A DNA stretch of 64,000 nucleotides from Sulfurospirillum diekertiae. GTDB taxonomy: Bacteria > Campylobacterota > Campylobacteria > Campylobacterales > Sulfurospirillaceae. A program made the position numbers and the translations under genes. Positions 3,997 to 61,964 of the stretch are shown here, piece after piece; within the stretch, counting starts at the first letter, position 1, and every line of letters begins with the position of its first letter. The stretch covers positions 496,001 to 560,000 of the forward strand of contig NZ_CP039734.2 of assembly GCF_011769985.2 (NCBI RefSeq), in the 5' to 3' direction. A model generated the notes under the pieces. The model searched no databases and was not told the DNA's origin. It saw nothing but the letters and a program-made list of their open reading frames with translations.

Positions 3997-4490
3997 CAGA
4001 GCTCGAAAATTCCTTTTTGTCTATTTTTATAGATACTTCCATGGCTGGCAATTGCCCCATGCATGGCAAGATTGACCCCATTTTTTTCTCGGCACATTAA
4101 ATCACCCAACGCCATCATGAAATTGCTGGTTGCTTCAACGGTATCAATGCTAAAAGGCACCATGGCACCTGTGAGGGTAATGATCTTATCTTTTACATGT
4201 AACGCTAAAAAAGTAGCGGTAACATCCATGGTATCCGTACCATGAACAATTAAAATTTTATGACATTGTGAAGATTGAATGGTTTTAACCATCAATTCAC
4301 GATCCTCCTCACTCATCTCAAGACTGTCTTTGTGAATGATATTCAACAGTTCATAGGAGGTATTATAGCAGTAGCGTAAAATGGACTCTACGGCGATGCC
4401 ATCTTGTGGAACTTCAAGCTCACCTTTAAGAGGATTGTAGCGTTTATTAAACGTGCCACCTGTGTTAATAATCAGGATTTTTTCCATCAT
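3993..4490 (-). CDS. Asparaginase-domain protein, single N-terminal domain
   Basis: Has the two threonine signatures of the type I/II L-asparaginase N-terminal domain: INTGGTF near residues 7-13 with the nucleophile Thr, and VHGTDTMDVTA near residue 85 with the second catalytic Thr-Asp pair. Full asparaginases are about 330 residues; this protein stops at 165, so the C-terminal domain that completes the dimeric active site is missing. The frame is clean, so it looks like a genuine short form, not decay. The start overlaps the dnaX stop (TAATGATG); the second ATG has better spacing from AAAAGG. It may hydrolyse an amide or bind a ligand; activity is unproven. Confidence 0.78.
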   Translation of the reverse strand: MMEKILIINTGGTFNKRYNPLKGELEVPQDGIAVESILRYCYNTSYELLNIIHKDSLEMSEEDRELMVKTIQSSQCHKILIVHGTDTMDVTATFLALHVKDKIITLTGAMVPFSIDTVEATSNFMMALGDLMCREKNGVNLAMHGAIASHGSIYKNRQKGIFELC

Positions 4491-6166
4491 TAAACCTTTT
4501 GGTGAATTTGAATTTTTTGTGGGTCAAAAAGCTCTGTTGCTCTTTGAACGAAAGGGGTATTAAGAACTTCTTTAGCGTCAATTTCCCGTTGACCTGCCAT
4601 TATGGCTCCTGCGGCACAGCTGTCGCTTTGAGGTGCATCTTCAAACGCTACACTTTCGATCATCGAAGCGCTTTGATCGTTTGCGCTCAGTTCTGCTTCA
4701 CTCATTTGCAATTCATAGTTAGGATCAAACGAAGGTTCAGGTTTTGGCTCAGGTGGAAGCACGTGCATTTTAGTGATTTTTATTTTTGTTTCCAAACCAA
4801 AAAGCTCTTGGACAAAGTGCTTGATAATGCTGTAATGAGTATTCAGCGTTTTACTCGCTTCTCCTTCTGCACTTGAACTGAGCATCAGCTGTTCTTCTGA
4901 AAAACTATCAAACCGAATATGCTTTTTAAAACAATCACCTAGCTCCGCGTTACGATCGAGCAATTTGTCGCACAGGCGGGCAAAAAGCATCTCCGAAGTG
5001 ACGCCTTGATCTTTTACATGTAAAGATGTTTCTTCAACTTCCACAGGAGTTGTTGGTGCTTCTGAAACATCTGTTTTAGCATGAGCCGTTGTTGGAAGGC
5101 GAAATTTTTCATTTTCAAGTGAGTCGATCATCTCTTCAATGGTTTTAATGTTGGTTGCTTCAATCATCTTAAAGAAGATTAACGAGAGCACAAAACCGTT
5201 GTTTGCATTGATGTACAAAAGACTTTTAGATTCACTGAGAATCTTGAAAAAACGTTCATACAGCAGTGTTGAAAAACGGCGATCTTGTGCAAAAAAGGCA
5301 TTTTTAAGATAAGCAATTAACTCATCTATGACGATTTCGCACTCATAACTTTCAAGCTCTTTAATAATGCCGAGCATCTCATTTTTATTGCCACTTAAAA
5401 TCGTTGTAAAAATTGTTTCAAGTTGATTAGGATCTAAAAGCCCTAACATCGTTGCAACATTCTCAGGCGTAATGTAGCCTTTGGAATAAATAATGGCTTG
5501 ATCCATGAGAGTCAACGTATCGCGCAGTGAACCATTGCCTGCACGGCTGAGCATCTCTAATGCCTCTTTTTCATATTCAATATTTTCAAGATGGAGAATA
5601 TGGCAAAGGTGATTAACGACGTCACTTTGCTTAATCTGTTTAAAACGAAAGTGCTGTGCACGCGATAAAATTGTTGCTGGAAGCTTTAGAGGATCAGTGG
5701 TTGCAAGGATGAATTTCACATAACTTGGAGGCTCTTCCAGTGTCTTTAAAAGCGCATTAAACGCTTGCGTGGTCAGCATATGGACTTCATCGATAATGAA
5801 GATTTTAAAACGCGCACTGGTAGGTTTGTATTTGGTACTTTCAATGAGTTCACGAATGTCATCAATACCACGATTGGATGCTGCGTCCATCTCGATGATG
5901 TCGATATGACGGTTTTCGTTGGCACTTAAGCAGTGTTCACACACTTCGCAGGGTGTTGAGGTTGGACCTTGCTCACAGACAAGAGCCTTAGCAAAGATAC
6001 GTGCTGTTGAAGTTTTTCCACTTCCACGAAGCCCAGAAAAGAGATAGGCATGAGAGAGTCTATCTTGGTTAAGTGCTAAACTAAGCGTTTGAGTAATCGA
6101 CTCTTGGCCGATTAGCTTATCAAAGGATGAAGGACGATATTTTAGAGCAAGTACTTGATGTGACAC
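4490..6166 (-). CDS. dnaX: DNA polymerase III subunit gamma/tau
   Basis: Clamp-loader ATPase of the replicative polymerase. N-terminal AAA+ module: Walker A GLRGSGKT at residues 45-52, a four-Cys zinc module (Cys64, 73, 76, 79), then Walker B FIIDEVHML and sensor 1 ILATTDP. The C-terminal half is divergent and acidic, typical for tau in this phylum. The start is GTG, with AAAGG 7 bp upstream; the frame opens MSHQVLALKYRP, the conserved DnaX start. At 558 aa it is of normal length. No strong A-rich slippery site was noticed. The asparaginase-like gene follows with a one-base overlap. Confidence 0.96.
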   Translation of the reverse strand: MSHQVLALKYRPSSFDKLIGQESITQTLSLALNQDRLSHAYLFSGLRGSGKTSTARIFAKALVCEQGPTSTPCEVCEHCLSANENRHIDIIEMDAASNRGIDDIRELIESTKYKPTSARFKIFIIDEVHMLTTQAFNALLKTLEEPPSYVKFILATTDPLKLPATILSRAQHFRFKQIKQSDVVNHLCHILHLENIEYEKEALEMLSRAGNGSLRDTLTLMDQAIIYSKGYITPENVATMLGLLDPNQLETIFTTILSGNKNEMLGIIKELESYECEIVIDELIAYLKNAFFAQDRRFSTLLYERFFKILSESKSLLYINANNGFVLSLIFFKMIEATNIKTIEEMIDSLENEKFRLPTTAHAKTDVSEAPTTPVEVEETSLHVKDQGVTSEMLFARLCDKLLDRNAELGDCFKKHIRFDSFSEEQLMLSSSAEGEASKTLNTHYSIIKHFVQELFGLETKIKITKMHVLPPEPKPEPSFDPNYELQMSEAELSANDQSASMIESVAFEDAPQSDSCAAGAIMAGQREIDAKEVLNTPFVQRATELFDPQKIQIHQKV

Positions 6167-6278
6167 GTAAAGACCTTTATCTAATTTATAACCAATTTTA
6201 CACTATTTTGAGATTTTTTCCAAAACCTTGCTCTGCCAATATCCTTGGCAATTTTTAGTGTCATAGTGGCTAACTCAA

Positions 6279-6333
6279 TCAAAAAAGTTTTGCTTTTTTG
6301 ACGTTCTGAACTAGACTTTTAAAAAAAGTCTAG
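6279..6333 (-). terminator. Tandem hairpins after rho
   Basis: Two perfect AT-rich hairpins follow rho. CTAGACTTTT at 6311-6320 pairs with AAAAGTCTAG at 6324-6333 and includes the rho TAG stop; TCAAAAAAG at 6279-6287 pairs with CTTTTTTGA at 6293-6301. The T runs lie within the stems. They would separate rho from dnaX transcription. Confidence 0.6.
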
Positions 6334-7945: not shown

Positions 7946-8623
7946 ATGAATGATTTAGTGCATTTGGCAATTATTATGGATGGCAATGGCAGATGGGCAC
8001 AGCGTCAAGGCAAAGAGCGCTCTTTTGGACACAAGGAAGGCGCTAAAAAGGTACGAGAGATTACCAAATATGCTGCAAAAATGGGCATCAAATACCTCAC
8101 ACTCTACGCCTTTAGCACTGAAAACTGGAATCGCCCAAAAGCCGAAGTTAGCGTTTTGATGAAACTGCTTTCCAAGTATTTGCACAGTGAAATTCCTATA
8201 CTTCTTGAAAATAATATCTGTTTTGATGTCATTGGTGATATGAGCAAACTTTCATCTTCTTTGCAAAAAGAGATCGCTTATGCGAAAGAGGCAACACAGC
8301 ACTGCACGGGGCTAAGGCAAATCTTGGCGATCAATTATGGTGCCCAAGATGAGATTCTTCGCGCCATCAATAAATCTTTACATGTAAAGGGTGAAATAAC
8401 CAAAGAGATTTTAGAAGCGCATCTTGATACAGCAGGCATTCCGTCTGTGGATCTGCTCCTTCGAACAGGGGGCGATTGTCGTCTTTCGAATTTTTTACTA
8501 TGGCAATCTGCCTATGCGGAACTTTTCTTCACAAAAACCTTATGGCCTGAATTTTCAATGGGAGAATTAGAAGCTATTATTTCCGAATATAAAACATCTG
8601 AAAGACGATATGGCAAAGTTTAG
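7946..8623 (+). CDS. uppS: Isoprenyl diphosphate (undecaprenyl) synthase
   Basis: Cis-prenyltransferase that elongates farnesyl diphosphate with isopentenyl diphosphate to make the C55 lipid carrier for peptidoglycan and other envelope polymers. The family signature IIMDGNGRWAQ lies at residues 9-19 (catalytic Asp12), followed by TLYAFSTENWNRP and the C-terminal LLLRTGGDCRLSNFLLWQSAYAEL block. 225 aa, normal length. A copy of the window's iterated palindrome lies inside the gene at 8377-8388 and is read as SLHVKGE, a position with no known conserved function. Confidence 0.96.
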   Translation: MNDLVHLAIIMDGNGRWAQRQGKERSFGHKEGAKKVREITKYAAKMGIKYLTLYAFSTENWNRPKAEVSVLMKLLSKYLHSEIPILLENNICFDVIGDMSKLSSSLQKEIAYAKEATQHCTGLRQILAINYGAQDEILRAINKSLHVKGEITKEILEAHLDTAGIPSVDLLLRTGGDCRLSNFLLWQSAYAELFFTKTLWPEFSMGELEAIISEYKTSERRYGKV

Positions 8624-8749: not shown

Positions 8750-11700
8750 ATGAAAAAAATTATTTTAATTGTCTTGTTTTGCTTATGTCAATATGTGAGT
8801 GCTGAAGAGGCTCTTCGCCTTGGAATTTTAGCGTTTCGCCCAAAAGAGCAGGCGTTACTTCAGTGGCAACCTTTTGCAACTTACCTCCAAAATACCATCG
8901 GGAAACCTATATCCCTTCAAATCTATAATTATCCAGAATTCACACAAGCAGTTGCCAATCACGAGGTTGACATCATCTTGACCAATCCAGGGCATTACAT
9001 CGTTTTAAAAAATAAGTTCAAACTCTCTGCCCCTCTTGTGACACAAATCACACAAAAAGATCATTTTACACTCACCCAATTTGCAGGCGTTATATTTACA
9101 CGCCACGATTCACCGATTTTAACATTACATGATATAGAATATAAACAGATTGCTGTAACCAATACCAATTCTCTTGGTGGGTATCAGATGCAAGCCTATG
9201 AGTTGGCAAATAGCGGTATTGCTCCTCATGATACACGTTTAGTCATAACAGGAATGCCCCACGACAAGGTTATTGAAGCAGTACTTTCGCATAAAGCCGA
9301 TGTGGGATTCGTGCGTACGAATGTCCTTGAAGATATGATTCATGAGGGAAAATTAGCATTATCCGATATTAAAATTATCAATGAACAAACAGATCAAAAA
9401 TTTCCATTTATTCACTCTACTAAACTTTATCCCGAATGGCCTTTGGTTGTTGTGCCAAACTTTGATGAGCATATTGCGCGTGACTTAACCGTAGCGCTTT
9501 TAGCACTTCCCTCCCAGAGTGAAGCTGCTACTCGTGCTCATATTCATGGATTCACAGTTCCTGCGGATTACAAAGGGGTAGAAGATGCGCTGCGAACGCT
9601 TCGTGTACCACCTTTTGAAAAAGCGCCCAATTTTACCTTAGCAGATTTTTGGTCACGATATTCTAATTACATCACAGGAATATTATCTATTTTTCTTGTT
9701 TTTCTTATGAGCATTGGTGTGCAGTTGTATAGGCAAAACAAACAAATACGTCAAAATGAAAAATACCTACTTTCAGCTCAAGATAGCTTGCAAAGCACTA
9801 TAGATGCTATTCCTGATACGCTGTTTGAAATGAGTTTAGATGGCGTTTATTTTCGTGTGGGAAGAGCGCATGCTCATTTTTCTTCTATGTTGGAAAATTT
9901 TATTGGTAAAAATGTCAATGATATTTATCCAAGTCACGTTGCTCTTGTTTTTATGGAAGCACTTCAGGAAGCCAATAAAAAAGGGCGTGCCTTTGGGTTT
10001 CAGTATGCTTTAGAGGGAACGCATAAACTCTTTTGGTTTGAGCTTTCGGTTTCTAAGAAAAAAGAATCTCATGACATGGCACATTTTATTGTGTTATCGC
10101 ATGATATTACCGATCGCAAAGAGACAGAAGCACGACTCAAACTCGCCGCAAGTGTGTTTACGTATGCGCGAGAAGGTATTATGATTACCAATGCTTCAGG
10201 CGAGATCGTTGAGGTCAATGACACCTTTACATGTATTACTGGGTATGCCCATGAAGAAGTTATTGGACACAATCCACGCCTGCTAAAATCGGGAAGACAA
10301 GGGAACTCTTTTTACAAGCAAATGTGGCAGTCACTCCTTGAAAAAGGGCATTGGTACGGTGAAATCTCTAACCGCCGTAAGTCGGGTGAAGTGTATATTC
10401 AGATGACCAGCATCAGTGCTGTCTACGATGAAAAAAAGGTTGTCCAGTCATATGTCGCTCTTTTTACAGACATCACAACAATGAAGGAGCATGAAAAACA
10501 GCTTGAATATATCGCTCATTACGATGCGCTCACTTCTCTTCCAAATCGTGTTTTATTTGCAGATCGACTCAGACAAGCGATGGTGCAAACAGAGCGAAGG
10601 AAAAAAGAGTTAGCGGTTGTCTATTTAGACCTTGATGGTTTTAAAGCGATTAATGATCAATATGGGCATCACATTGGTGATGAGCTTTTAGTCATTATTG
10701 CAGAACGTATGGAGGAGGCTCTTCGTCAGGGCGATACGATCTCAAGGCTTGGTGGTGATGAGTTTGTTGCTGTTTTGACGGACCTTGAGAGTTTAGAAGA
10801 GTGTAGACCTATTTTAGATCGTCTTTTGCAAGCAACATCTGACCCTATTGTGATCAATGACAACATCATCCAAGTCTCTAGTAGCATTGGTGTTACGCTG
10901 TACCCAAAAGATGGTGTGGATGCAGAACAGCTTTTAAGGCATGCAGACCTTGCAATGTATCAGTCAAAACAGGGAGGGAAAAACCGTTACCACTTCTTTG
11001 ATATAGAGTATGACAAAGCGATCCAACAGCAAAATGCAAGTCTTGGAAATATTTTATCTGCGATTGCAAACGATGAATTTATTCTCTACTACCAGCCAAA
11101 AGTAAATCTTAAAACACATGAACTTATCAGTGTTGAAGCGTTGATACGGTGGCAACATCCCGAGCAAGGCTTTTTGCTTCCGCATGCTTTTTTGCCGATC
11201 GTGGAAGATCATGTCCTAAGCATTAAGCTAGGTGAGTGGGTTATTGAGCGAGCATTTAAACAGATGAGTGATTGGATCAAAAAAGGGTTACCTCTCGCTG
11301 TGAGCATTAACGTCGGTGCGAGACAACTTCAAGATGCGAACTTTACGGATTACATCCAAACCATGTTGCTTCGCTATCCAGAGGTTCCATCACATCTTAT
11401 TATATTAGAAATTTTAGAGACCAGTGCGTTGGAAGACATGGTGCATGTTTCGCAAATCATGCATGCGTGTAAAGCACTGGGAGTTCGCTTTGCACTGGAT
11501 GATTTTGGTACGGGGTATTCATCGCTGAGTTATCTACGAAAATTGCCAATCGATATTTTAAAAATTGATCAAAGTTTTATTTGTAATCTTCTGCATGACC
11601 GAGATGACCTTGCCATTGTTGAAGCGATTGTGGGCTTAAGTAAAGCATTTGATTTGAGTGTCGTTGCGGAAGGTGTTGAAACACAAGAACATGCCGAGCT

Positions 11701-11803
11701 TCTCTTAAAGCATGGCTGTGAGTTAGCACAAGGCTACGGCATCGCACGCCCCATGCACCCCGATGCTATCATTGATTGGAAAAAATCCAGTTCTTACATG
11801 TAA
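8750..11803 (+). CDS. PhnD-like/PAS/PAS/GGDEF/EAL cyclic-di-GMP receptor
   Basis: A 1017-residue membrane signalling protein. Order: signal peptide (about 1-19, cleavage near VSAEE); periplasmic PhnD/PBP2-type ligand-binding domain (about 20-290; DIILTNPGHYIVL and ADVGFVRTNVLE are typical); one membrane helix (about 310-330); two PAS domains (about 345-460 and 465-580); GGDEF with intact RLGGDEF and an inhibitory RxxD site (RQGD) five residues before it; and EAL with intact EALIRW and the DDFGTGYSS loop. Both cyclase and phosphodiesterase parts keep key residues, so either activity is possible. The ligand may be an oxyanion such as a phosphonate or phosphite, which is inference. Its TAA lies inside a copy of the iterated palindrome. 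Confidence 0.93.
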   Translation: MKKIILIVLFCLCQYVSAEEALRLGILAFRPKEQALLQWQPFATYLQNTIGKPISLQIYNYPEFTQAVANHEVDIILTNPGHYIVLKNKFKLSAPLVTQITQKDHFTLTQFAGVIFTRHDSPILTLHDIEYKQIAVTNTNSLGGYQMQAYELANSGIAPHDTRLVITGMPHDKVIEAVLSHKADVGFVRTNVLEDMIHEGKLALSDIKIINEQTDQKFPFIHSTKLYPEWPLVVVPNFDEHIARDLTVALLALPSQSEAATRAHIHGFTVPADYKGVEDALRTLRVPPFEKAPNFTLADFWSRYSNYITGILSIFLVFLMSIGVQLYRQNKQIRQNEKYLLSAQDSLQSTIDAIPDTLFEMSLDGVYFRVGRAHAHFSSMLENFIGKNVNDIYPSHVALVFMEALQEANKKGRAFGFQYALEGTHKLFWFELSVSKKKESHDMAHFIVLSHDITDRKETEARLKLAASVFTYAREGIMITNASGEIVEVNDTFTCITGYAHEEVIGHNPRLLKSGRQGNSFYKQMWQSLLEKGHWYGEISNRRKSGEVYIQMTSISAVYDEKKVVQSYVALFTDITTMKEHEKQLEYIAHYDALTSLPNRVLFADRLRQAMVQTERRKKELAVVYLDLDGFKAINDQYGHHIGDELLVIIAERMEEALRQGDTISRLGGDEFVAVLTDLESLEECRPILDRLLQATSDPIVINDNIIQVSSSIGVTLYPKDGVDAEQLLRHADLAMYQSKQGGKNRYHFFDIEYDKAIQQQNASLGNILSAIANDEFILYYQPKVNLKTHELISVEALIRWQHPEQGFLLPHAFLPIVEDHVLSIKLGEWVIERAFKQMSDWIKKGLPLAVSINVGARQLQDANFTDYIQTMLLRYPEVPSHLIILEILETSALEDMVHVSQIMHACKALGVRFALDDFGTGYSSLSYLRKLPIDILKIDQSFICNLLHDRDDLAIVEAIVGLSKAFDLSVVAEGVETQEHAELLLKHGCELAQGYGIARPMHPDAIIDWKKSSSYM

Positions 11804-11882: not shown

Positions 11883-13214
11883 ATGTCTTTAAACATGTTA
11901 TGTGATCAATGCTCTATGAGTGCAATCGGTGGCTGTGGTTCAAAAGGTCAAGATGCGGGAACGTGCGGCAAAGATGCCAACTTGGCGAAACTTCAAGACA
12001 TCATGATTTACGGTCTTAAAGGGCTCAGTGCTTATAGAACACACGCGAATGAATTTGGTGCAGACACCAAAGAAGTCGATGACGTCATCGCGCAAACACT
12101 CTACTTCACCCTTACCAACGTTAACTTCAACTTTGACGACCACATCGCTCAACTGATGAAAATCGGCTCTGCGGGTGTTAGAATGATGGACATCCTAAGC
12201 GAAGCACACACGTCTCACCTTGGTGTTCCAACGCCTGTGAGCATTTCTCAAAACAAGGCTGAGGGCAAAGGCATCTTGGTCAGTGGTCACAACCTTGACA
12301 TGCTTTTAGAGCTTTTACGTCAAACAGAGGGTAAAGGCATCAACATCTACACCCATTCCGAGATGCTTCCAGCGCATGGTTACCCAGAACTTAGAAAATA
12401 CGCACACCTTAAAGGTAACATCGGTAAATCATGGTTTGACCAAACCAAACTCTTTGAGCAATGGGACGGAACCATCATCGTGAACACCAACTGTATCGTT
12501 CCTCCAAAATCAACATCAACCTATGTCGATAGACTTTATACCTACGACATCGTCGGCATCAAAGAGGGCAAAAAAATCCACAATAACGACTTTAGCGAAG
12601 TGATCGCTCAAACATTAGCACTCCCCGATGTTACAGGTTTTGACAGTGATGAGACACTCGTAACGGGTCACCACTATAAAACCATCTTAGGTCTTGCTCC
12701 ACAAATTCTTGAAGCGGTCAAAGCAGGTAAAATCAGCCAGTTCTTCGTCATCGCGGGTTGTGATGCTCCTGGCTCAGGCGGGGAATACTACCGAAAAATG
12801 GCAGAGAGTTTACCAAATGACTGCGTAATTTTGACATCAAGTTGTGGTAAATTTAGATTTAACGACATCGACTTTGGAACGGTTGCAGACACAGGCATTC
12901 CTCGCTACCTAGACCTTGGTCAATGCAACGACAGTAACGGCGCTGTTCACATCGCTCTAGCGCTTGCTGGCGCACTTGGCGTAACGGTGCATGACTTACC
13001 AGTCTCTATCGTTCTTAGCTGGATGGAGCAAAAAGCAGTTCTTATTCTTCTAGGACTCTTTAGCCTTGGCATCAAAAACATCTACCTAGGACCAAAACCA
13101 CCACAATTTGTGAACGATGACATCTTCTCATTTTTGCAAGAGAACTTTAATTTGCATTTGACCGATGATGCAACATCAGATATGGAAAAATTATTGATTA
13201 AAAAACCTGCGTAA
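11883..13214 (+). CDS. hcp: Hybrid cluster protein (hydroxylamine/NO reductase), short class
   Basis: Hcp carries a cubane Fe-S cluster and a hybrid Fe-S-O cluster and is linked to detoxifying nitric oxide and hydroxylamine under anaerobic nitrosative stress. The N-terminal cysteines are Cys7, 10, 18 and 28 (CDQCSMS...GGCGSKG...GTCGKD). Hybrid-cluster signatures follow: INIYTHSEMLPAHGYP, NTNCIVPP, ITSSCGKFRF and LGQCND. At 443 aa it is about 100 residues shorter than E. coli Hcp and fits the class lacking the three-helix insert. It is a single gene with its own FNR-type promoter and terminator; no hcr reductase lies next to it. Confidence 0.94.
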   Translation: MSLNMLCDQCSMSAIGGCGSKGQDAGTCGKDANLAKLQDIMIYGLKGLSAYRTHANEFGADTKEVDDVIAQTLYFTLTNVNFNFDDHIAQLMKIGSAGVRMMDILSEAHTSHLGVPTPVSISQNKAEGKGILVSGHNLDMLLELLRQTEGKGINIYTHSEMLPAHGYPELRKYAHLKGNIGKSWFDQTKLFEQWDGTIIVNTNCIVPPKSTSTYVDRLYTYDIVGIKEGKKIHNNDFSEVIAQTLALPDVTGFDSDETLVTGHHYKTILGLAPQILEAVKAGKISQFFVIAGCDAPGSGGEYYRKMAESLPNDCVILTSSCGKFRFNDIDFGTVADTGIPRYLDLGQCNDSNGAVHIALALAGALGVTVHDLPVSIVLSWMEQKAVLILLGLFSLGIKNIYLGPKPPQFVNDDIFSFLQENFNLHLTDDATSDMEKLLIKKPA

Positions 13215-13216
13215 GG

Positions 13217-13230
13217 TTTTACATGTAAAA
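13217..13230. repeat. Iterated palindrome copy after hcp
   Basis: TTTTACATGTAAAA begins 3 bp after the hcp stop and directly precedes the hcp terminator. Confidence 0.9.
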
Positions 13231-13906: not shown

Positions 13907-13918
13907 TTTACATGTAAA
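13907..13918. repeat. Iterated palindrome copy
   Basis: Exact TTTACATGTAAA between the lipocalin gene and the convergent nuclease-like operon, just before a terminator hairpin. Confidence 0.9.
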
Positions 13919-46333: not shown

Positions 46334-49154
<2,821 letters not shown>

Positions 49155-50593: not shown

Positions 50594-51381
50594 AAATAGC
50601 GGCATTGCAACTCAGTACACTCCCAATGAGCGAAGCAAAACTCGATTATTACTTTCGCATTTGCAAACAAAAAGAGGTTGAGGTGGTGCTGTTAAGTGAA
50701 TACGCACTCAACAGTTTTTTCAAAGAGTTAGAAAGTATGCCACTTTCCATGATTAAAGAGCAATCCAATCATAAAATTGAAGTTTTGAAAAAATTGTGTG
50801 CGGATTATGATTTGCATGTCATTGCTCCGATTGTCAATATTAAAGGGGAGTTTTGCTACAAATGCAATGCTCATTTTTCGGCTAAATCGGTGCATTTTTT
50901 TGATCAACAATTTTTAATTAATTATAAACACTGGAATGAAGAGAAATTCTTTGCCAATACCGTTTCAAAATATGTATTGCCTATCTTTTTACACAATGGT
51001 ATTCGCTTTGGTATCGTCAGTGGGTATGAACTTCATTTTGACACTGTTTGGATGGAAGTCATGAAGAAAAATGTGGATGTAGTCCTTACACCGACTTCAT
51101 CCACATTTGATTCAGCACACCGTTGGGAAGAGCTTCTTAAAATGAGAGCCATGTTAAACAATGTTTATATTTTAAGAGCTAACCGTGTGGGAAGTTACAA
51201 AGAAGAAGAGACGTGGCAATTTTACGGCAAAAGCAGTCTGATTTCTCCTTTTGGCGAAGTCGAGCTCACCTTAGGCGATAAAGAAGAGATGCTGGTCGCG
51301 ACCATCGAAAAAGAAAGCCTTGCGGAAGCGCGAAAGCTTTGGGGATGGAAAAAACAGGTAAGTAAGCGAGAAAGCGTATGA
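50590..51381 (+). CDS. Carbon-nitrogen hydrolase (nitrilase superfamily)
   Basis: 263 aa. Layout of a nitrilase-like fold with catalytic Glu in LLSEYAL near residue 36 and Lys in NYKHWNEEKF near 117, but the usual Cys elbow reads GIVSGYELHF, so the expected cysteine nucleophile is replaced. VVLTPTSSTFDSAHRWEELLKMRAMLNNVYILRANRVG matches the family C-terminal region. It may therefore be a non-catalytic or altered member. ATG overlaps the xseB stop (ATGA); overlaps thiF-like gene by 4 bp. Confidence 0.85.
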   Translation: MKIAALQLSTLPMSEAKLDYYFRICKQKEVEVVLLSEYALNSFFKELESMPLSMIKEQSNHKIEVLKKLCADYDLHVIAPIVNIKGEFCYKCNAHFSAKSVHFFDQQFLINYKHWNEEKFFANTVSKYVLPIFLHNGIRFGIVSGYELHFDTVWMEVMKKNVDVVLTPTSSTFDSAHRWEELLKMRAMLNNVYILRANRVGSYKEEETWQFYGKSSLISPFGEVELTLGDKEEMLVATIEKESLAEARKLWGWKKQVSKRESV

Positions 51382-52043
51382 TGCACTATTTCCACAGACA
51401 AGTACAGCTCTGGGGAGAAGAGACACAACAAAGTTTACAAAGTAAAAAAATTGTCATCATTGGTTGTGGAGGGCTAGGAAGCTCTTTAGCGTACGCGCTA
51501 GGAAGTTCGGGTATTGGTGAAATTCACCTCGTGGATTTTGATGAAGTGAGTGTGCATAATATTCATCGTCAAATTGCTTTTAAAGTAGGGGATGAGGGAA
51601 AACTCAAAGCCGATGTGGTCAAAGAGAGCATTGAAGCGCGTTGCCCTTTTGTCAAAGTTTATGCGCATATCGGACGTTTGGAAGTCTTTACATGTAAAGA
51701 GATTGAAGTCGATCTTATCATCGATGCAACCGATAATTTACCAACACGTAGCTTAATTGATGCCTATGCCAAAGAGGTAAAAACACCGTGGGTTTATGGT
51801 TCTGTTGAAGCGTTTAATGGGCAAGTTTGCTTTTTTGAGCAGAGTAGTTTTTCTGCCTTTAAGATTAGTGACAAAAAACCTTCCGGTATTGCTGCTCCTA
51901 TTGTGATGCACATAGCCTCGTTGCAAGCCAATTTAGCATTGCGCTATCTAGCGGGGCTCAGCGTTAAAAAAGATTTGCTTTATTATCTGTTTATCAATGA
52001 AGAGGGTGAACTCATCACCCAAAAATTTGGAATGCTACACTAA
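51378..52043 (+). CDS. ThiF/MoeB/HesA-family adenylyltransferase
   Basis: 221 aa E1-like enzyme. Nucleotide-binding GCGGLGSSLAYALGSSGIGEI, then LVDFDEVSVHNIHRQIAF with the conserved Asp and Arg, and DATDNLPTRSLID. The zinc Cys pairs of MoeB/ThiF are absent at the C terminus. It could activate a ubiquitin-like sulfur carrier such as ThiS or MoaD; the partner is not next to it. Two adjacent ATGs (51378, 51381) are possible starts. An internal palindrome copy (51687-51698) is read as VFTCKEI. Confidence 0.9.
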   Translation: MMHYFHRQVQLWGEETQQSLQSKKIVIIGCGGLGSSLAYALGSSGIGEIHLVDFDEVSVHNIHRQIAFKVGDEGKLKADVVKESIEARCPFVKVYAHIGRLEVFTCKEIEVDLIIDATDNLPTRSLIDAYAKEVKTPWVYGSVEAFNGQVCFFEQSSFSAFKISDKKPSGIAAPIVMHIASLQANLALRYLAGLSVKKDLLYYLFINEEGELITQKFGMLH

Positions 52044-52049: not shown

Positions 52050-52063
52050 TTTTACATGTAAAA
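52050..52063. repeat. Iterated palindrome copy feeding a ribosome binding site
   Basis: TTTTACATGTAAAA lies between the ThiF-like gene and dapC; its 3' arm runs straight into AAAAGGA, the dapC ribosome binding site. Confidence 0.9.
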
Positions 52064-52072: not shown

Positions 52073-53200
52073 TTGCATTTTGAACCTTATCCCTTTGAAA
52101 AATTAACGGAATTATTAAAAGATATTACGCCCAACAGTGCGTATCCAGCGGTTACATTAACCATTGGTGAGCCACAGTTTGAGACACCTGATTTTATTCA
52201 AAAAGCACTCAAAGAAAATGTGCATTTGCTCAAAAAATATCCTAAATCTTCGGGTGAAGCATCTGTTAATGAAGCGCAACGCAGTTTTGTGAAAAAGCGT
52301 TTTGGTGTTGAGCTTAAAGCCAGTGAGTTAATCTCTGTTTTTGGAACAAAAGAGGTGCTTTTTAATTTTCCTCAGTACCTCCTTCATGACAAGCCAAACC
52401 CTGTGATGGCGTATCCAAACCCGTTTTATCAAATCTACGAAGGTGCCGCCATTGCGAGTCGTGCTCGTGTGGTACATCTTAATTTGACTCAAGAGAACGG
52501 GTTTAAACCGGATATTCATTTAGCCGCCCTCAAAGAAGCAGATTTGATTATTCTTAATTCTCCCAACAACCCCACCACTTCGGTTTTAAGCCTTGAAGAA
52601 CTGGGTGAATGGGTGAAGTTTGCCCTCAAATACGATATTGTACTTCTTAATGATGAGTGTTACAGTGAACTTTACGTGGGCGAGAAGCCAGCCTCTTTGT
52701 TGGAAGCCTCTTTACATGTAGGAAATAATACATTTAGAAATATTTTGGTACTCAATTCTCTTTCCAAACGAAGTTCAGCGCCAGGGTTACGCTCAGGATT
52801 TATTGCAGGCGATGAGAAAATCCTCAGTGGTTACGCAAAGTATCGTACCTACGTGGGAGCAGCGATTCCCTTGCCACTCCAGAAAGCATCAGCTGCGGCG
52901 TGGAATGATATGGAACATGTGGAACTCACACGTGCACAATACGCGAAAAACCTTCGCTTAGCACACGATATCTTAGGTGTACCCGCAATCAATGCAACCT
53001 TTTACGTTTGGCTAGAAGTGAAGAATGATTTGGAATTTACATGTAAACTGTATGAGCAAAAAAATATCAAAGTTCTACCAGGTCGTTTCTTAGGACGTGG
53101 CGGTATGGGTGATGGATATGTCCGCATTGCGCTTGTTGAAAATAGCGAAAAAACGGAACAGATATTAAAAGAGATCAAAGAGGTTATCGCCTCTTTCTAA
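52073..53200 (+). CDS. dapC: Aminotransferase class I/II, probable succinyldiaminopimelate aminotransferase
   Basis: 375 aa PLP enzyme. NSPNNPTTSVLSLEEL, DECYSELY and the PLP-Lys block LNSLSKRSSAPGLRSGF are fold type I signatures. The Campylobacterota homologues act in lysine/diaminopimelate synthesis, which fits dapE 4 kb away; other aminotransferase activities cannot be excluded. TTG start 7 bp after AAAGGAA. Contains one exact palindrome copy (53036-53047, EFTCKLY) and one partial (SLHVGNN). Confidence 0.87.
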   Translation: MHFEPYPFEKLTELLKDITPNSAYPAVTLTIGEPQFETPDFIQKALKENVHLLKKYPKSSGEASVNEAQRSFVKKRFGVELKASELISVFGTKEVLFNFPQYLLHDKPNPVMAYPNPFYQIYEGAAIASRARVVHLNLTQENGFKPDIHLAALKEADLIILNSPNNPTTSVLSLEELGEWVKFALKYDIVLLNDECYSELYVGEKPASLLEASLHVGNNTFRNILVLNSLSKRSSAPGLRSGFIAGDEKILSGYAKYRTYVGAAIPLPLQKASAAAWNDMEHVELTRAQYAKNLRLAHDILGVPAINATFYVWLEVKNDLEFTCKLYEQKNIKVLPGRFLGRGGMGDGYVRIALVENSEKTEQILKEIKEVIASF

Positions 53201-53221: not shown

Positions 53222-53233
53222 TTTACATGTAAA
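53222..53233. repeat. Iterated palindrome copy after dapC
   Basis: TTTACATGTAAA, extended to GCTTTACATGTAAAGC (53220-53235), 20 bp after dapC and just upstream of structured element copy B. Confidence 0.9.
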
Positions 53234-54662: not shown

Positions 54663-55021
54663 TGCAACTTTTACTTTTTTTAGCACTCGTGTTTCTTATT
54701 GCTTCTGTTATCGCTGCCAAAAAGAGCACTTTTTCTAAAAAAGCAAAAGGAGGACTGTTTATGGTCCTTGCCTTTCTCCTCGCTCTTGCTTGGTGGTATG
54801 AAGCACAAAGTCGACAGAGCAGTGAAGAAAACCGTTTGATGATTAGTGCATTTAAACAAGGTAAATCGCTCTATTGTGATGGTCGAGAAATTTCTTTGGA
54901 CACCTTTGTTTTTGTGAATGGAACGCTTAGTTTTATTGCAAACAATAATAACCAAAATGACAGAGGTGTTGTCATCGATTTAGAAACATGTAAGCTTGAA
55001 AAAGCGAAAGTAAATCCCTAA
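54662..55021 (+). CDS. Small two-helix membrane protein, 119 aa
   Basis: ATG 54662 shares a base with the murC stop (TGATG); AGGAG is seven bases upstream. Two hydrophobic segments (about 2-18 and 30-46) are followed by a small periplasmic domain with two Cys residues (YCDGREIS and ETCKLEK) that may pair. It sits tightly between murC and mutS2 (one-base overlaps). No family recognised. Confidence 0.8.
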   Translation: MQLLLFLALVFLIASVIAAKKSTFSKKAKGGLFMVLAFLLALAWWYEAQSRQSSEENRLMISAFKQGKSLYCDGREISLDTFVFVNGTLSFIANNNNQNDRGVVIDLETCKLEKAKVNP

Positions 55022-57222
55022 TGGAAAAACTTTTTTCAAAACTGGATTTGGTCGATTATGCCCAAAGTTTTAAGCACTTTTTAGCACGTGAAAAACCCCT
55101 TTTTATGGAGGGTGACGCAAATTTACATTATAAATTGATTCATGAGCTTCTTACCTGTGATCGCCTCAAGCCTCTGCCTGAAGTTCCTTCTTTGGATGTA
55201 GCACTCATGCATCTAAGCAAGATGGGCATACTGCGTCTCAATGAAATTTTTGCGTTTGTTCAAATAATCAAGTATATGCAGTATCTCAAAAATATGTTGA
55301 TTGATCAAAGTCTTGGCGAATGGATGGAACGAATTCTGATTCCCCAAGAGATTACACACATTTGTGACTATTTTGATGAGAAAGGGGAACTAAAACCTAG
55401 TGTTGATGAGCAATTTGCCAACATCGCACAAAGTCTCAAAATGGTGAAAGATGAAATGAACAGCACCCTTCGCCGTCTCATTTCCACCGAAAAAATAGCA
55501 CTTTACCTCGCCGATAAACAGATTCACTATATCAATAATCAAGAAGCACTTTTGGTTCGCGGTGGATTTAATCATGTGCTTAAAGGCAATGTTATTGGGC
55601 GCAGTAGTAGCGGATTTTTTTATGTCGTACCTGAATCTTTAGGCAAACTGGTAAGTCGCGAAAGTGAATTGATAGACCGCAAAGAAGAGCTGGTTTATAA
55701 GTACGCCAAACAGATCTCTGCCGTGTTTACCAAGCAACTTAAATTTTTGGGCTTTGTGAACAAAGAATTTGACCGTTTTGATGCCTATTATGCGAGAGTT
55801 GCGTATGCGAGAGAAAAAGATATGGAGTTTGTGCTTCCTTCAAAAACACATTCGATCAAGCTTGAAAACTTTGCCCATCCTGCTCTTGTGAATCCAAAAC
55901 CCATCACGATTGATTTTTCCAAACAAGTTTTGATGATCACAGGTGTGAATGCGGGGGGTAAGACGATGCTTTTAAAGTCGATTCTCTCAGCGGCAATCTT
56001 AAGTAAATATCTGCTTCCGATGCGCATTGACGCGAGACATTCGAGCATTGGCTCTTTTAAAGAAGTCTTTGCCATTTTGGATGATCCTCAAAATGTCAAA
56101 AATGACATCTCCACCTTTGCCGGGCGGATGAATGAGTTTAGTAAACTCTTTGGGAAAAAAGCAGCACTCATTGGTGTGGATGAAATTGAGCTGGGAACGG
56201 ACGCTGATGAAGCGGCGAATCTCTTTAAAGTGATGATCGAAAAACTCATCGACAAAGAGATGAAAATCGTCATTACCACCCACCATAAGCGCTTAGCTTC
56301 CTTGCTTGCCACCCACCCAGAAGTGGAGCTTTTGGCCGCAATTTACGATGAAAAGAGCGAACGTCCCACATACGGCTTTCTCAAAGGAACGATTGGTCGA
56401 AGTTATGCGTTTGAAACAGCCCTTCGTTATGGGATTCCGCAGAGCTTAGTTGCCGAAGCACGTGTTTTGTATGGCGAAGACAAAGAAAAACTCAATGAGC
56501 TCATTCAAAAAAATATTGATTTAGAGCTTGAGATGCGCAAAACCTCGGAAGAACTGGATGCGAGACTTCGTGAGGTAGAAAAACTCAAAGAGTCTTTGCG
56601 CGATGAAAAAGAGCGCGTGAGAGAAGAGTTTGATCATGCCTATTCGAAGATGTCTAAAGAGTTCAATCAAGCGATTGGCGAAGCAAAAAAAGCGATTAAA
56701 AGTTCCGATACCAAAGAGTCGCATCGTCTGTTAAACAAAGCCAATCAGTTGCATCAAGAGACACGCAAAGTGATTCCCGATCAAAAGGCCGAACCTTTAC
56801 ATGTAAACGATAAAATCAAATATGGAAGCTCCAAAGGGGTGATTAAAAGCATCAAAAAAGAGGAAGCAACCATCGAATGCGATGGCATTATGCTTCGCGT
56901 GCCACTCTCTAAGCTCAAACGCAGTGGTAATCAACCTAAAGTGCATAAAGCGGGCGTGGTGATTTCTAAAGAGACACCGAGTGGCTCAATGATTTTGGAT
57001 TTACATGGTCTGCGAGCCGATGAAGCCGTTGAAAAACTGGATAAATTTTTAAGTGACGCATTGATGAGTGGTTTTGATGAGGTTTTGGTCTATCATGGCA
57101 TTGGGACAGGCAAATTAGCGTATGCGGTACGAACCTTTTTAAGCACCTATCCATCACTTGTTTCCTATGGTGATGCACCGATTAATATGGGTGGATATGG
57201 TGCTACATTGATTAAACTTTAA
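55021..57222 (+). CDS. mutS2: MutS2 family ATPase/endonuclease
   Basis: 733 aa. MutS core helices, ATPase with Walker A TGVNAGGKTMLLKS, Walker B ALIGVDEIELGTD and the dimer-interface ITTHHKRLASL, a long coiled coil (about 490-600), a KOW-like segment (GVIKSIKKEEATIECDG) and a C-terminal Smr nuclease domain with LDLHGLRADEAVEKL and YHGIGTGKL. MutS2 suppresses recombination and in some bacteria rescues collided ribosomes. The mismatch-recognition domain is absent, as usual. An internal palindrome copy (56796-56807) is read as PLHVNDK. Confidence 0.95.
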   Translation: MEKLFSKLDLVDYAQSFKHFLAREKPLFMEGDANLHYKLIHELLTCDRLKPLPEVPSLDVALMHLSKMGILRLNEIFAFVQIIKYMQYLKNMLIDQSLGEWMERILIPQEITHICDYFDEKGELKPSVDEQFANIAQSLKMVKDEMNSTLRRLISTEKIALYLADKQIHYINNQEALLVRGGFNHVLKGNVIGRSSSGFFYVVPESLGKLVSRESELIDRKEELVYKYAKQISAVFTKQLKFLGFVNKEFDRFDAYYARVAYAREKDMEFVLPSKTHSIKLENFAHPALVNPKPITIDFSKQVLMITGVNAGGKTMLLKSILSAAILSKYLLPMRIDARHSSIGSFKEVFAILDDPQNVKNDISTFAGRMNEFSKLFGKKAALIGVDEIELGTDADEAANLFKVMIEKLIDKEMKIVITTHHKRLASLLATHPEVELLAAIYDEKSERPTYGFLKGTIGRSYAFETALRYGIPQSLVAEARVLYGEDKEKLNELIQKNIDLELEMRKTSEELDARLREVEKLKESLRDEKERVREEFDHAYSKMSKEFNQAIGEAKKAIKSSDTKESHRLLNKANQLHQETRKVIPDQKAEPLHVNDKIKYGSSKGVIKSIKKEEATIECDGIMLRVPLSKLKRSGNQPKVHKAGVVISKETPSGSMILDLHGLRADEAVEKLDKFLSDALMSGFDEVLVYHGIGTGKLAYAVRTFLSTYPSLVSYGDAPINMGGYGATLIKL

Positions 57223-57293: not shown

Positions 57294-58409
57294 ATGATGT
57301 TAACAACAGAAGAACTTTTCTTAAAACTTTTACGCTTTGTCTCCGTAACACCTCATGATGATGGGGCTTTTGCGTTTATAAAAGAGTATTTAAATGATTT
57401 TAACGTTATGGAAGTGAACGTTGAAGAAACGAAAAATCTCTTTTTATATAAACGCTTTAGTGAAGGTCCACATCTTTGCTTTGCAGGGCATATTGATGTT
57501 GTACCAGCGGGTCATGGATGGCAGAGTGAGCCGTTTGAACCTATCATGAAAGAGGGTATCGTTTATGCGAGGGGTGCGCAAGATATGAAAAGTGGTGTGT
57601 GTGCATTTTTACAAGCACTCAAACAAACAGAAAATTTTAAGGGCACACTCTCAGCACTTCTCACCAGTGACGAAGAGGGTGATGCTAAACACGGTACCAT
57701 AGAAGTTCTCAAAGCATTAAAAAGTCGTTCCTTCTTACCCGACTACGCCATTGTGGCAGAACCTACATCCGAAACAGTTTTTGGAGATGCTATCAAAATT
57801 GGGCGTAGAGGTTCTGTCAATGGGGTCATTGAAATTACAGGCAAGCAAGGTCATGCGGCTTATCCTGAAAAAGCGGTCAATCCTGTCCATCAAGTAGCTT
57901 CCGTACTGCACAAGCTTGCAGGTCATTTACTCGATAATGGTGATGAGGATTTTACCCCTTCCCAAATGGTTATTACCGATATTCGCGGCGGTATGGAAGT
58001 CACCAATGTCACTCCTGGAAATCTCAAGATTATGTTCAATGTCCGCAACTCAACTCAAACCGATATAGAAAAAATTCGTCTCTATGTAGAAGACGTTCTT
58101 CAGGGAATGAACTTTAGCCTCAGCCTCAGCCAAAGTGCGCAACCTTTTATTACATGTAAAGACTCTTTAATTATCAAAACACTCAAGAATGCGCTTTTAC
58201 ATGTAAACGGAAAAGTACCTAAACTTTCCACGGCGGGTGGAACCAGTGATGCACGTTTCTTTGGTAATTTTGGTGTTGCAACCGTCGAGTGCGGCGTGGT
58301 TAATGACACGATTCATGCTCCCAATGAGTGCTGCCCTTTAAGCGAAGTAGACTCTTTGGTGTCGGTATTTAAAACTGTAATTGAAAACTTTAAAAAGGAA
58401 GTTCTATGA
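57294..58409 (+). CDS. dapE: Succinyl-diaminopimelate desuccinylase
   Basis: 371 aa M20 metallopeptidase-type enzyme that removes succinate to give LL-diaminopimelate for lysine and peptidoglycan. Metal ligands in [36 protein letters not shown], and the C-terminal His in [10 protein letters not shown]. Two adjacent ATGs (57294, 57297) follow GAGG; the second is better spaced. Contains two palindrome copies 46 bp apart (58150-58160 as FITCKDS; 58196-58207 as LLHVNGK). ridA overlaps its stop. Confidence 0.95.
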
Positions 58410-60266: not shown

Positions 60267-60956
60267 ATGATAAATCCTCTTGATCTTTACGCCAAAATCG
60301 AATCTTTAATCGGTTTTGATGCACAATATGAAAAACTCTACCAGATCTATTTGAGTTTGTTAAAACCTTTACATGTAAAGACTGTTTTAGATGTTGGATG
60401 TGGTAATGGCACGTTTTTGAAGCATTTGCAAAACGAGCAATTTGATGCCTATGGCATTGATAGAAGTGTTGCAATGGTTGAACGCTCCCTTACTTTAGGT
60501 ATGAATGCAAGTACCAAAGAGCTAGAGGAGTTTGGTGAAGCTTCGTTTGAATGCGTGGTTGCCATCGCAGATGTTCTTAATTACATCTCCCCTACAGAGA
60601 TGGACTCTTTTTTGGAAGCAGTCGCAAGAGTTTTGCCCAAAGAGGGTTATTTTATCTTCGATGTTAACACGCTGTATGGTTTTGAAGGTGTGGCAGATGG
60701 CGTCATGTGTCAAGATAAGGAAAACCAATTTTTATGCGTTGATGCAACATTTTCTGATAAAGAATTGTTAACAAAGATCGTTTTATTTGAAAAAGAGGAT
60801 GAGCTTTACCGTAAAGTTGAGGGCTCGATAACACAATACTTTCATCCACTTTCATTTTTCAAAAAGCTTAAAATGTTTAAACTCTGCTCTACCAAACCCG
60901 TCACACTTTTTGGCGACGAGCCTGATAAAACTATTTTAATTTTGCAAAAACGTTAA
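60267..60956 (+). CDS. Class I SAM-dependent methyltransferase
   Basis: 229 aa. Rossmann motif I VLDVGCGNGTFLKHL near residue 40, then YGIDRSVAMVERS (motif II) and ECVVAIADVLNYIS (motif IV). Substrate unknown. Palindrome copy at 60368-60379 sits just before motif I (PLHVKTV). Stop codon shared within TTAA (60953-60956) with the convergent gene. Confidence 0.9.
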   Translation: MINPLDLYAKIESLIGFDAQYEKLYQIYLSLLKPLHVKTVLDVGCGNGTFLKHLQNEQFDAYGIDRSVAMVERSLTLGMNASTKELEEFGEASFECVVAIADVLNYISPTEMDSFLEAVARVLPKEGYFIFDVNTLYGFEGVADGVMCQDKENQFLCVDATFSDKELLTKIVLFEKEDELYRKVEGSITQYFHPLSFFKKLKMFKLCSTKPVTLFGDEPDKTILILQKR

Positions 60957-61429
60957 CCCATTTTTTGTAAAAATGTGTTGAGCATTGAGTTTTGCTGATC
61001 TATCTTAGTGTCCGTATTAAGTTTATCCATGAGTTGTTTGCGAAAATCACTCAACATTTGGTCTAAACTTGCTAGTGCTTCGGCTCGCGCATTCCCCGTT
61101 AATGGAGGTTGAGCATCGGCACTTAATCCTAGTTTGTCTTCTAATTCTGCTTTTTTCTCTTCAATCATTTTTTCAATTTTTTCATTGTTATAATCTTGGA
61201 AAAAAGTCAGAGCACCTTTGCTTCCCAACGTCTTCTTAAACTCTTCAACCATTGCATCTGATTCACTTGGTTCTGTGATAGCGGACTGATTCATGGTTGT
61301 TTTTGTGGCAATTTGTTTTTGGAATTCTTCTGCAAAAGAAGATGTTGTAGAAGCACTATCGTCTTTGAGCACAGATTGCGTGCTACTAAACAATTGACTG
61401 AGGTTATTTTTTGCATCGCTGATAGTCAT
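60953..61429 (-). CDS. Hypothetical helical protein, 158 aa
   Basis: Soluble, Ser/Thr/Gln-rich N terminus and a helical C-terminal half (NNEKIEKMIEEKKAELEDKLGLSAD; ALASLDQMLSDFRKQLMDKL) ending in NTFLQKMG. No signal peptide. RBS AAGGAG and a TATAAT near 61457 upstream. The composition recalls flagellar rod or chaperone-type accessory proteins, but I cannot assign a family. Confidence 0.78.
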   Translation of the reverse strand: MTISDAKNNLSQLFSSTQSVLKDDSASTTSSFAEEFQKQIATKTTMNQSAITEPSESDAMVEEFKKTLGSKGALTFFQDYNNEKIEKMIEEKKAELEDKLGLSADAQPPLTGNARAEALASLDQMLSDFRKQLMDKLNTDTKIDQQNSMLNTFLQKMG

Positions 61430-61508
61430 AAAAACTCCTTATAACATAGTAATTATAACAAGCAAAAAAGGTTCCTATGTTACAATAATAAAAAAGTAAA
61501 GGTCTGCT

Positions 61509-61964
61509 ATGTTCACGGTTGAAGAGGCAAAACTTTCGGATATAGAGAGTTTAATTGATTTGCTAACACTACTTTTTTCACAAGAAGCAGAGTTTGCTCC
61601 TGCAAGAGATATCCAAAAAAGAGGGCTTCAAACGATCTTAGAAGATAAAAAAATTGGTACGATTTTTGTTCTCAAAGATAAGCAAAAAATCATCGGCATG
61701 GTCAGCCTTTTATGGACAATCAGCACAGCATTGGGTGGACGTGTTGCTTTTTTAGAAGATATGGTAGTTGATACTGCATGGCGAGGAAGAGGCGGTGGAC
61801 ATATACTGGTTGAACATGCCATTGCTTATGCAAAAAAACTTACATGTAAACGCATTACACTTTTAACGGACACTGACAATTTAGCCGCACATCGTTTTTA
61901 TCAGCAGTTTGGATTTCAAACCTCTGTGATGCAACCTATGCGTTTGATACTGAATGATCAATAA
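61509..61964 (+). CDS. GNAT-family N-acetyltransferase
   Basis: 151 aa. Motif A VAFLEDMVVDTAWRGRGGGHILVEHAI provides the acetyl-CoA pyrophosphate loop (RGRGGG); motif B RITLLTDTDNLAAHRFYQQFGFQ follows. Substrate unknown. Palindrome copy at 61840-61850 encodes KLTCKRI between the two motifs. Confidence 0.92.
   Translation: MFTVEEAKLSDIESLIDLLTLLFSQEAEFAPARDIQKRGLQTILEDKKIGTIFVLKDKQKIIGMVSLLWTISTALGGRVAFLEDMVVDTAWRGRGGGHILVEHAIAYAKKLTCKRITLLTDTDNLAAHRFYQQFGFQTSVMQPMRLILNDQ

Follow-up and report, generated by a model that had tools for sequence, protein, structure and literature searches.

The palindrome described here, the 10-mer TTACATGTAA (the core) and its 12-mer form TTTACATGTAAA, was examined in a 64-kb stretch of the Sulfurospirillum diekertiae genome (positions 496,001 to 560,000 of contig NZ_CP039734.2; hereafter the window) and has its closest described counterparts in the highly iterated palindrome (HIP) HIP1 of cyanobacteria, in the uptake signal sequences (USS) of Pasteurellaceae and DNA uptake sequences (DUS) of Neisseriaceae, and in the methylation-dependent DNA import of Campylobacter jejuni, for each of which we draw on part of the published account. 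HIP1 and the alternate HIPs are palindromic and number hundreds of copies per Mb; HIP1 is associated with DmtA (type II alpha, N6-methyladenine [m6A], GATC) and a CGATCG enzyme, one or more orphan methyltransferases (MTases) recognize the inner part of the palindrome, and the motif count is low mostly where the enzyme is missing (PMC4390886). The USS (PMC1626085) and DUS (PMC3630211) occur at about one copy per kb, lie in both coding and spacer DNA, are common to related species and have perfect copies that far exceed those with a single mismatch (one-offs); AT-rich flanks lie about a helical turn from the USS core (PMC1626085). DNA import in C. jejuni is restricted to DNA that CtsM has methylated at RAATTY, an MTase there marking a palindromic motif with m6A (RAm6ATTY; PMC10046745). 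The Sulfurospirillum motif shares the symmetry and copy number of the HIPs, and the strictness, dual placement, occurrence in related species and AT-rich flanks of the uptake sequences. Its density, about 0.4 copies per kb, is comparable with that of the uptake sequences. However, its core is a perfect palindrome whereas USS and DUS cores are non-palindromic, hence we do not file it as a USS or DUS. We know of no characterized USS or DUS core that is a palindrome, and of no MTase that maintains either. C. jejuni belongs to the same order as Sulfurospirillum, Campylobacterales, and its RAATTY motif is short and not known to be iterated. The main result reported below is that the upkeep of the Sulfurospirillum palindrome follows the presence of one gene, MTase1, for a D12-class adenine MTase.

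The window contains 31 cores and 21 exact 12-mers, against 0.13 and 0.00 expected from 100 dinucleotide shuffles, which bears out both counts of a preceding sequence-only reading of this DNA; the start positions it listed, a mixture of 12-mer and core starts, are correct within 1 bp (24707 should be 24706). The core has CATG at its center. The genome comprises 2,777,717 bp in two contigs and has 1,220 cores, compared with eight in the reversed sequence used as a control, and a close relative (G244) has 1,211. A 464-kb sample, composed of the window and 20 stretches of 20 kb and covering ~17% of the genome, has 224 cores, 148 of which are full 12-mers. Markov models trained on the same 464 kb, motif included, predict 0.69 (order 3), 2.5 (order 4), or 29.7 (order 5) cores, and an order-3 model with the motif masked predicts 0.36. 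The over-representation is by orders of magnitude and genome-wide, as for HIP1, and is not a peculiarity of the window. Membership in a longer, mobile repeat, the other concern raised by the sequence-only reading, was rejected, as base composition is near even beyond ~8 bp on either side of the motif. The motif occurs in every one of the 20 sampled stretches (4-14 copies per 20 kb), and the sample showed no stretch depleted of it, such as a gap at the terminus.

The strictness of the ten core letters is close to absolute, in genes and spacers alike. In the 464 kb, the 224 perfect cores are accompanied by only 28 one-offs at any position; mismatches at inner positions account for 11 of these versus 14.1 expected (order-3 model, masked sequence), while the outermost T/A tolerates some change (17 one-offs versus 1.5 expected). 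In five genomes with MTase1 the ratios of perfect to one-off copies are 224:28, 41:8, 35:10, 42:14, and 37:7, a strictness similar to that of the USS and DUS. Outside the core there is a T at -1 in ~80% of copies, a C at -2 in ~50% and A/T-richness from -4 to -8, mirrored on the other side, which places the AT-rich flanks roughly one helical turn away from the dyad. Coding (122) and spacer (102) copies share these preferences, which are therefore a property of the site itself rather than of gene ends. In two loci of more distant relatives, L041 and L044 (a 14-kb sample each), the motif may be looser, with TACATGTA as its constant part, and CTACATGTAG occurs three times in L041.

The retention of individual sites was assessed by aligning orthologous positions, as the sequence-only reading had suggested, and they proved to be retained in relatives with MTase1 and lost in G009, which lacks it. 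The close relative G244 keeps 30 of 31 sites (neutral expectation 23.1), and G015 keeps 25/29 (12.6), G008 23/26 (3.8), G014 15/21 (1.8), and G016 12/18 (1.5). G008 and G009 are diverged to a similar degree (17.5 and 18.7%), yet G009 keeps only 1 of 22 sites, with 2.8 expected (Fisher p 3.6e-9 for the two genomes). In G008, core divergence is 0.031 versus 0.171 in the next 10 bp, and in G009 it is 27.7%. In five of the six loci at 80-84% identity, 27 of 28 sites are retained; the remaining one, the motif-poor L033, retains one of four. At 76-77% identity retention is partial (L035 4/6, L047 4/8, L038 2/6, L039 2/7, L037 1/5; L040, at 77.6%, 0/2), and loci more distant still keep none or one site. 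For Sulfurospirillum diekertiae JPD-1, the class I tRNA synthetase marker is 100% identical and the aligned DNA of the marker locus 95.6% identical.

The excess of inner one-offs per perfect copy was determined for five of the 14 genus genomes with MTase1 and six of the nine without. With MTase1 it is close to zero (G000, the genome of the window, -0.01; G008 0.00; G015 0.03; G016 0.05; G014 0.09); without it the values are 0.12 (G017), 0.66 (G010), 1.31 (G021), 2.11 (G020), 5.3 (G011), and 12.5 (G009). The two genomes of other genera sampled differ, G025 having no copy and no excess and G036 no perfect copy and four one-offs versus 0.8 expected. Taken together, the alignments and one-off counts show a motif whose individual sites stay letter-perfect in the sampled genomes with MTase1 and decay in the sampled genomes without it, in the most eroded of which, G009, the decay is that of neutral DNA.

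MTase1 is 325 amino acids in length and is encoded at C1:2,481,820-2,482,794 (-) (Pfam PF02086, E 4.2e-47). Its counterparts in the genus are 61-92% identical to this copy and the 13 that are full-length group together with 100/100 support. At loci with enough flank, MTase1 has a transglutaminase-like gene on one side and a response-regulator or sensor-kinase gene on the other, and by inspection, with three neighbor proteins scanned against Pfam, no restriction-nuclease-like neighbor was found. As judged from this neighborhood MTase1 is an orphan MTase. Beside MTase1 in G004 is a cut open reading frame (ORF; L154:1-1131, -) whose start is Cas9-like by eye, with what we take to be a RuvC-I-like motif.

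MTase1 is present in 14 of the 23 genus genomes (in G006 as two pieces at a contig end), all of which have 362-520 motifs/Mb, and was not found in nine with 19-467 motifs/Mb, densities for which most genome sizes were rounded. The nine are G009 (19 motifs/Mb), G011 (60), G020 (85), G021 (152), G010 (153), G002 (233), G018 (276; 77% complete), G017 (389), and G001 (467; 86% complete). The absence is clean in six (G002, G009, G010, G011, G020, and G021), where the two flanking genes (response regulator and transglutaminase-like) directly adjoin each other on a single contig and no MTase1 remnant was detected by tblastn at E<=1; these genomes have 19-233 motifs/Mb, and eroded copies were present in the five of them that were sampled. 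In G018, the contig is broken at the locus, and in G017 and G001 the neighbor gene itself was not found. By the marker tree, the MTase1 state changed at least four times (G001 is not in the tree). We read this as one early acquisition, because the location of MTase1 is shared by members as distant as G007 and the genome of the window, followed by loss in four lines (G010+G011, G017, G002+G021, and G009+G020), plus G018 if real. The loss in G009 and G020 is clear, since they lie inside a well-supported group that has MTase1.

MTase1 belongs to the only one of five gene families, profiled over 41-60 genomes, that follows the motif, the D12 methylases. The EcoRI-type methylases (PF13651), the family to which CtsM presumably belongs, were found in only three of the 23 genus members (G005, G013, and G018) with no correspondence to the motif, and a CtsM-type system is not indicated by this comparison. 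N6_N4 MTases (PF01555) are missing from eight genus genomes with at least 840 copies, including that of the window. ParB, considered as for a ParB/Noc-type binding site, gave ParB_N matches in 57 of 60 genomes, whether these were rich or poor in the motif, and no ParB-family protein following the motif was found. The fifth family, ComEC, is considered below. The second contig of the S. diekertiae genome (39.9 kb) encodes a divergent MTase1 homolog, 55% identical in a frame of 366 amino acids (C2:1692-2600, L183), and also has a weak ParB_N match (C2:33922-34107).

The probable target of MTase1 is suggested by its relatives. IceA, which we take to be a relative of NlaIII and to have hp1208 as its neighbor in H. 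pylori, has a PF05315 match in 41 of 397 genomes of the class and in none of the window's family. Of 30 IceA loci fetched, 28 carry a neighboring MTase related to MTase1, 46-53% identical where full-length. MTase1 retains the DPPY motif shared with these enzymes of the IceA/NlaIII-type CATG restriction-modification systems (H. pylori HpyI), and 103 positions that do not vary among 12 clade-1 sequences have the same residue in at least 11 of 12 IceA-linked ones; nine positions (one a gap) are fixed differently. The IceA-linked MTase has a nuclease next door, whereas MTase1 does not by inspection. Hp1208 of H. pylori is an alpha-class enzyme that methylates CATG, producing m6A (PMC3936762, in part). 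MTase1 probably methylates the central CATG, and thus would recognize the inner part of the palindrome as the HIP1 enzymes do. Three lines of evidence meet here (co-variation with the motif, homology to IceA-linked enzymes, and the CATG at the center), although their agreement is not fully blind because the D12 family was chosen partly as the home of CATG enzymes.

Core counts are 49-1,496 in the 22 other genus members, 7-733 in genomes of four further genera of the family, and 0-6 in 23 other genomes of the order. Among 397 genomes of the class, those outside the family with the highest counts are G365 (f11 g72; 1,059), G395 (380) and G161 (367) (both f17 g47), G385 (f17 g75; 354), G172 (f17 g21; 340), and G337 (f17 g47; 194); five more have 31-96 and all the remainder at most 19. 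The scattering of motif-rich genomes among near-empty relatives in other families suggests convergence or transfer of the whole system. No replacement palindrome stood out in 16-63 kb samples of the motif-poor genomes G009, G010, G011, G025, and G036, or in single loci.

The sites in the window, to which no strand is assigned, are as follows, in relation to genes from our own simple ORF calls.

Core, 4193-4202, inside ORF 3993-4490 (-)
12-mer, 5013-5024, inside ORF 4490-6166 (-)
12-mer, 8377-8388, inside ORF 7946-8623 (+)
Core, 11794-11803, overlapping the stop codon of the GGDEF/EAL gene 8750-11803 (+)
12-mer, 13218-13229, spacer just past the 3' end of the prismane-family gene 11883-13214 (+)
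12-mer, 13907-13918, convergent spacer
12-mer, 16750-16761, tandem spacer
Core, 17704-17713, tandem spacer
12-mer, 17792-17803, tandem spacer near a gene 3' end
Core, 19489-19498, divergent spacer
12-mer, 21500-21511, convergent spacer, 8 bp from a gene 3' end
Core, 22088-22097, divergent spacer
12-mer, 22460-22471, inside the DEAD-box helicase gene 22134-23405 (+)
12-mer, 23409-23420, convergent spacer, 9 bp from a gene 3' end
Core, 24706-24715, inside ORF 23426-25171 (-)
12-mer, 28637-28648, tandem spacer
12-mer, 33892-33903, tandem spacer
12-mer, 37388-37399, tandem spacer
Core, 37951-37960, inside the cytochrome c assembly gene 37642-40779 (+) (ResB and Cytochrom_C_asm domains)
Core, 43316-43325, divergent spacer upstream of the class I tRNA synthetase gene 43357-46119 (+), the marker
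12-mer, 44169-44180, inside the class I tRNA synthetase gene 43357-46119 (+)
12-mer, 49166-49177, spacer after the IMP dehydrogenase gene 47706-49154 (+)
12-mer, 51687-51698, inside ORF 51378-52043 (+)
12-mer, 52051-52062, short tandem spacer
12-mer, 53036-53047, inside ORF 52073-53200 (+)
12-mer, 53222-53233, tandem spacer
12-mer, 56796-56807, inside the MutS_V/Smr-domain gene 55021-57222 (+)
Core, 58150-58159, inside ORF 57294-58409 (+), first of two sites 47 bp apart
12-mer, 58196-58207, inside ORF 57294-58409 (+), second of the two sites
12-mer, 60368-60379, inside ORF 60267-60956 (+)
Core, 61840-61849, inside ORF 61509-61964 (+)

The division of these sites into 14 genic ones and 17 that lie in a spacer or on a stop codon was obtained from ORF calls independent of the sequence-only reading, which had arrived at the same split; its estimate that spacers make up about a tenth of the DNA compares with 7.5% of the 464 kb. 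In that sample, 119 of the 224 copies are in genes (206 expected by length), three are on stop codons, and two are at the ends of stretches. Spacer copies are in excess in every orientation, namely convergent (24, 1.7 expected, 14-fold), tandem (56, 10.3 expected), and divergent (20, 4.8 expected), and 44 of 100 are within 20 bp of a gene 3' end versus 14.6 +/- 3.4 expected. Genes with at least two copies number 22, versus 16.4 expected. Five copies occur within 0.9 kb (G000 C1:8789-9678, L004) in a uracil-DNA glycosylase gene and a MutY-like gene (HhH-GPD plus NUDIX); known uptake sequences reportedly favor genes of genome maintenance. Some spacers that follow gene ends contain motif pairs 13-20 bp apart that are mutual inverted repeats (L074:8831-8859, L076:17254-17276, L077:16299-16322, L082:17882-17906, and L090:3486-3515). 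These pairs could form hairpins like the paired USS and DUS known to serve as terminators.

Motif density climbs with guanine plus cytosine (GC) content (Spearman 0.80, 23 pieces of 20 kb), and the sole bin below 30% GC among 232 bins of 2 kb has no copy. We presume the low-GC stretches with fewer copies to be recent arrivals, which we count in favor of the explanation proposed below. A stretch of 24.8% GC in the window with no motif copy encodes a 678-residue ORF (13954-15990, -) with no Pfam match, adjoining a NERD-nuclease/zinc-ribbon gene (15987-16739, -), and this region looks like a recent arrival. The window also includes a tmRNA gene (25178-25553, -) with the tag ANNSNYRPAYALAA.

Of the copies inside genes, 87 have the core read as Leu-His-Val (TTA-CAT-GTA) and 32 in the Thr-Cys frame. 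Leu-His-Val has the top z-score of all tripeptides with an expectation above 2, occurring 114 times versus 22.5 expected in 142,608 codons, and its 27 occurrences that are not motif-encoded are near expectation, which indicates that the motif has altered proteins and not merely codons. The nearly motif-less G009 has 16 Leu-His-Val versus 5.3 expected, one still motif-coded, and the excess is probably a fossil of former motif copies. Leu-His-Val is similarly in excess in G010 (26 versus 6.1 expected, eight motif-coded) and G020 (14 versus 6.1, five motif-coded). The leftover tripeptides and the erosion in these three genomes suggest that their ancestors probably had the motif and that the force maintaining it vanished.

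That force must act on each copy separately, anywhere in the genome, must be strong enough that there is no visible crowd of decaying copies, and must be missing without MTase1. The sequence-only reading had noted the likeness to HIP1 and to uptake sequences, which holds well for density, strictness, and occurrence in unrelated genes and spacers, and had offered three functions, of which a methylation target gains indirect support (motif upkeep follows an orphan MTase of a CATG-type family), an uptake signal is favored by analogy, and the site of a chromosome-organizing protein fits less well. We tentatively favor, at somewhat short of even confidence, a highly iterated palindromic mark of self DNA whose upkeep depends on the m6A MTase MTase1 and whose driving force would be transmission. 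A transmission advantage is favored because it acts locally on each copy without local function, because the known uptake sequences are equally strict and have AT-rich flanks, and because C. jejuni has a methylation license. Its function would most likely be that of a methylation-coupled uptake or exchange signal. MTase1 would methylate the central CATG of the palindrome; methylated copies, read by a receptor as an extended, methylated site, would license DNA uptake or exchange between relatives; each copy would improve the spread of its own stretch of DNA, such that sites would build up wherever little harm is done and mutated copies would be replaced. If MTase1 were lost, no copy would be marked and all would erode. 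A self-DNA code of a third kind, that is, a palindromic uptake sequence valid only when methylated by a domesticated, nuclease-less CATG MTase, is a proposal we make more guardedly still.

Several observations weigh against this explanation. Uptake is experimentally proven for the USS and DUS, whereas here it is assigned by analogy; competence, uptake bias, methylation, and the uptake receptor are all putative in Sulfurospirillum, the reading resting on comparison, and competence of Sulfurospirillum was not the subject of any of the papers listed by a search of one open-access library, judged by titles and the starts of abstracts. Unlike what might be expected of USS/DUS-type competence, ComEC does not co-vary with the motif, being present in 57 of 60 genomes, motif-rich or not; it is partial or has a stop in a few (e.g., G003, G007, G011, and G036) and has an open frame in the most eroded genome, G009. 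G017 and G001 have many copies without MTase1, as does G026 of another genus (567 copies, no D12 homolog), and the three are exceptions to the HIP1-like rule of a low count where the enzyme is missing; the MTase1 link covers the genus, and motif-rich genomes such as G365 also occur outside the family. As only five families were profiled, a better-matching gene may exist. Second-clade relatives of MTase1 are present in the motif-sparse G002 and G021 and in four g4 genomes (7-23 copies), and, presumably CATG-specific, they do not stop erosion in G021, so either CATG methylation alone would be insufficient or they would read another target. The independent events are few, with only two independent pairs on well-supported branches of a marker tree that has an unstable outgroup and few starred branches, for which the pairs test cannot reach significance, and for the early-branching genomes the tree also allows ancestral absence of MTase1 instead of loss. 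There was no consistent drop in divergence around sites that would mark recombination (divergence is lower near sites in G244, in a comparison of ~64 kb aligned with most G244 stretches not overlapping those of G000, and higher in G015). Lastly, as to the even distribution the sequence-only reading had raised, copies are present in all stretches sampled but their spacing is close to random (coefficient of variation of gaps 0.98 versus 1.05 for random placement).

Dependence on MTase1 and strictly local upkeep in coding and spacer DNA would also fit a by-product of methyl-directed repair, in which MTase1 methylates CATG and a repair or nicking system reading the methylated extended site biases correction towards the palindrome, the motif needing no function. 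An MTase recognizing the inner part of a palindrome is the situation at HIP1 (PMC4390886). We nonetheless consider this by-product unlikely. Lowered mutation alone cannot build ~1,220 sites, as about two per genome are expected by chance (scaled) and we estimate that tens of substitutions per site are needed; one-off sites would thus have to be actively converted, but inner one-offs occur about as often as chance predicts and are not clearly depleted. In addition, Elhai's version of this mechanism requires MutS/MutL-type repair, and to our knowledge the Campylobacterota are without canonical MutS1/MutL.

The strict dyad with weaker symmetric flanks resembles the site of a dimeric DNA-binding protein, and together with the presence of copies in all 20 sampled stretches it could be accounted for by a chromosome-organizing or cell-cycle protein whose binding depends on methylation state, in a SeqA- or Noc-like use. 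We think this rather improbable. With ~1,220 redundant sites, one-offs and turnover should be tolerated, yet positions are individually kept even at 17.5% divergence, and such a protein is a weaker account of this site-by-site conservation and strictness; moreover, the ParB-type genes do not distinguish motif-rich from motif-poor genomes and the sampled stretches have no terminus gap. That the copies are mainly transcription terminators or roadblocks at gene ends is very improbable, as the crowding near gene 3' ends, the enrichment in convergent spacers, and the inverted pairs are offset by the 119 copies inside genes, by a single site giving merely a short AT-rich stem (by inspection), and by neither the MTase link nor the strictness being accounted for, and a terminator role is probably a secondary use.

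The sequence-only reading knew of no description of this motif, in agreement with searches of one open-access library, in which the exact strings occur in 3 and 18 papers, none of them by its title about a repeated bacterial motif, and in which no paper on such a Sulfurospirillum motif was listed, judged by title and abstract start (most subscription papers lie outside that library). What is new is that a HIP occurs in a further phylum, where it comes with a comparison in which the absence of the gene is clean; the palindrome may also be a novel type of uptake code. What HIPs do has been an open question since HIP1, and the genus provides a natural experiment on it, in that closely related species have one gene missing between unchanged neighbors and a motif decaying site by site. 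It also offers a named gene and a named motif in environmental bacteria, several of which are cultured. If the self-DNA code is real, it would join the uptake-sequence principle of Haemophilus and Neisseria to the methylation-license principle of Campylobacter, rewriting proteins on the way. If uptake is its function, a restriction-modification enzyme would have been turned into a species-recognition device, and a transmission signal could reshape protein sequences.

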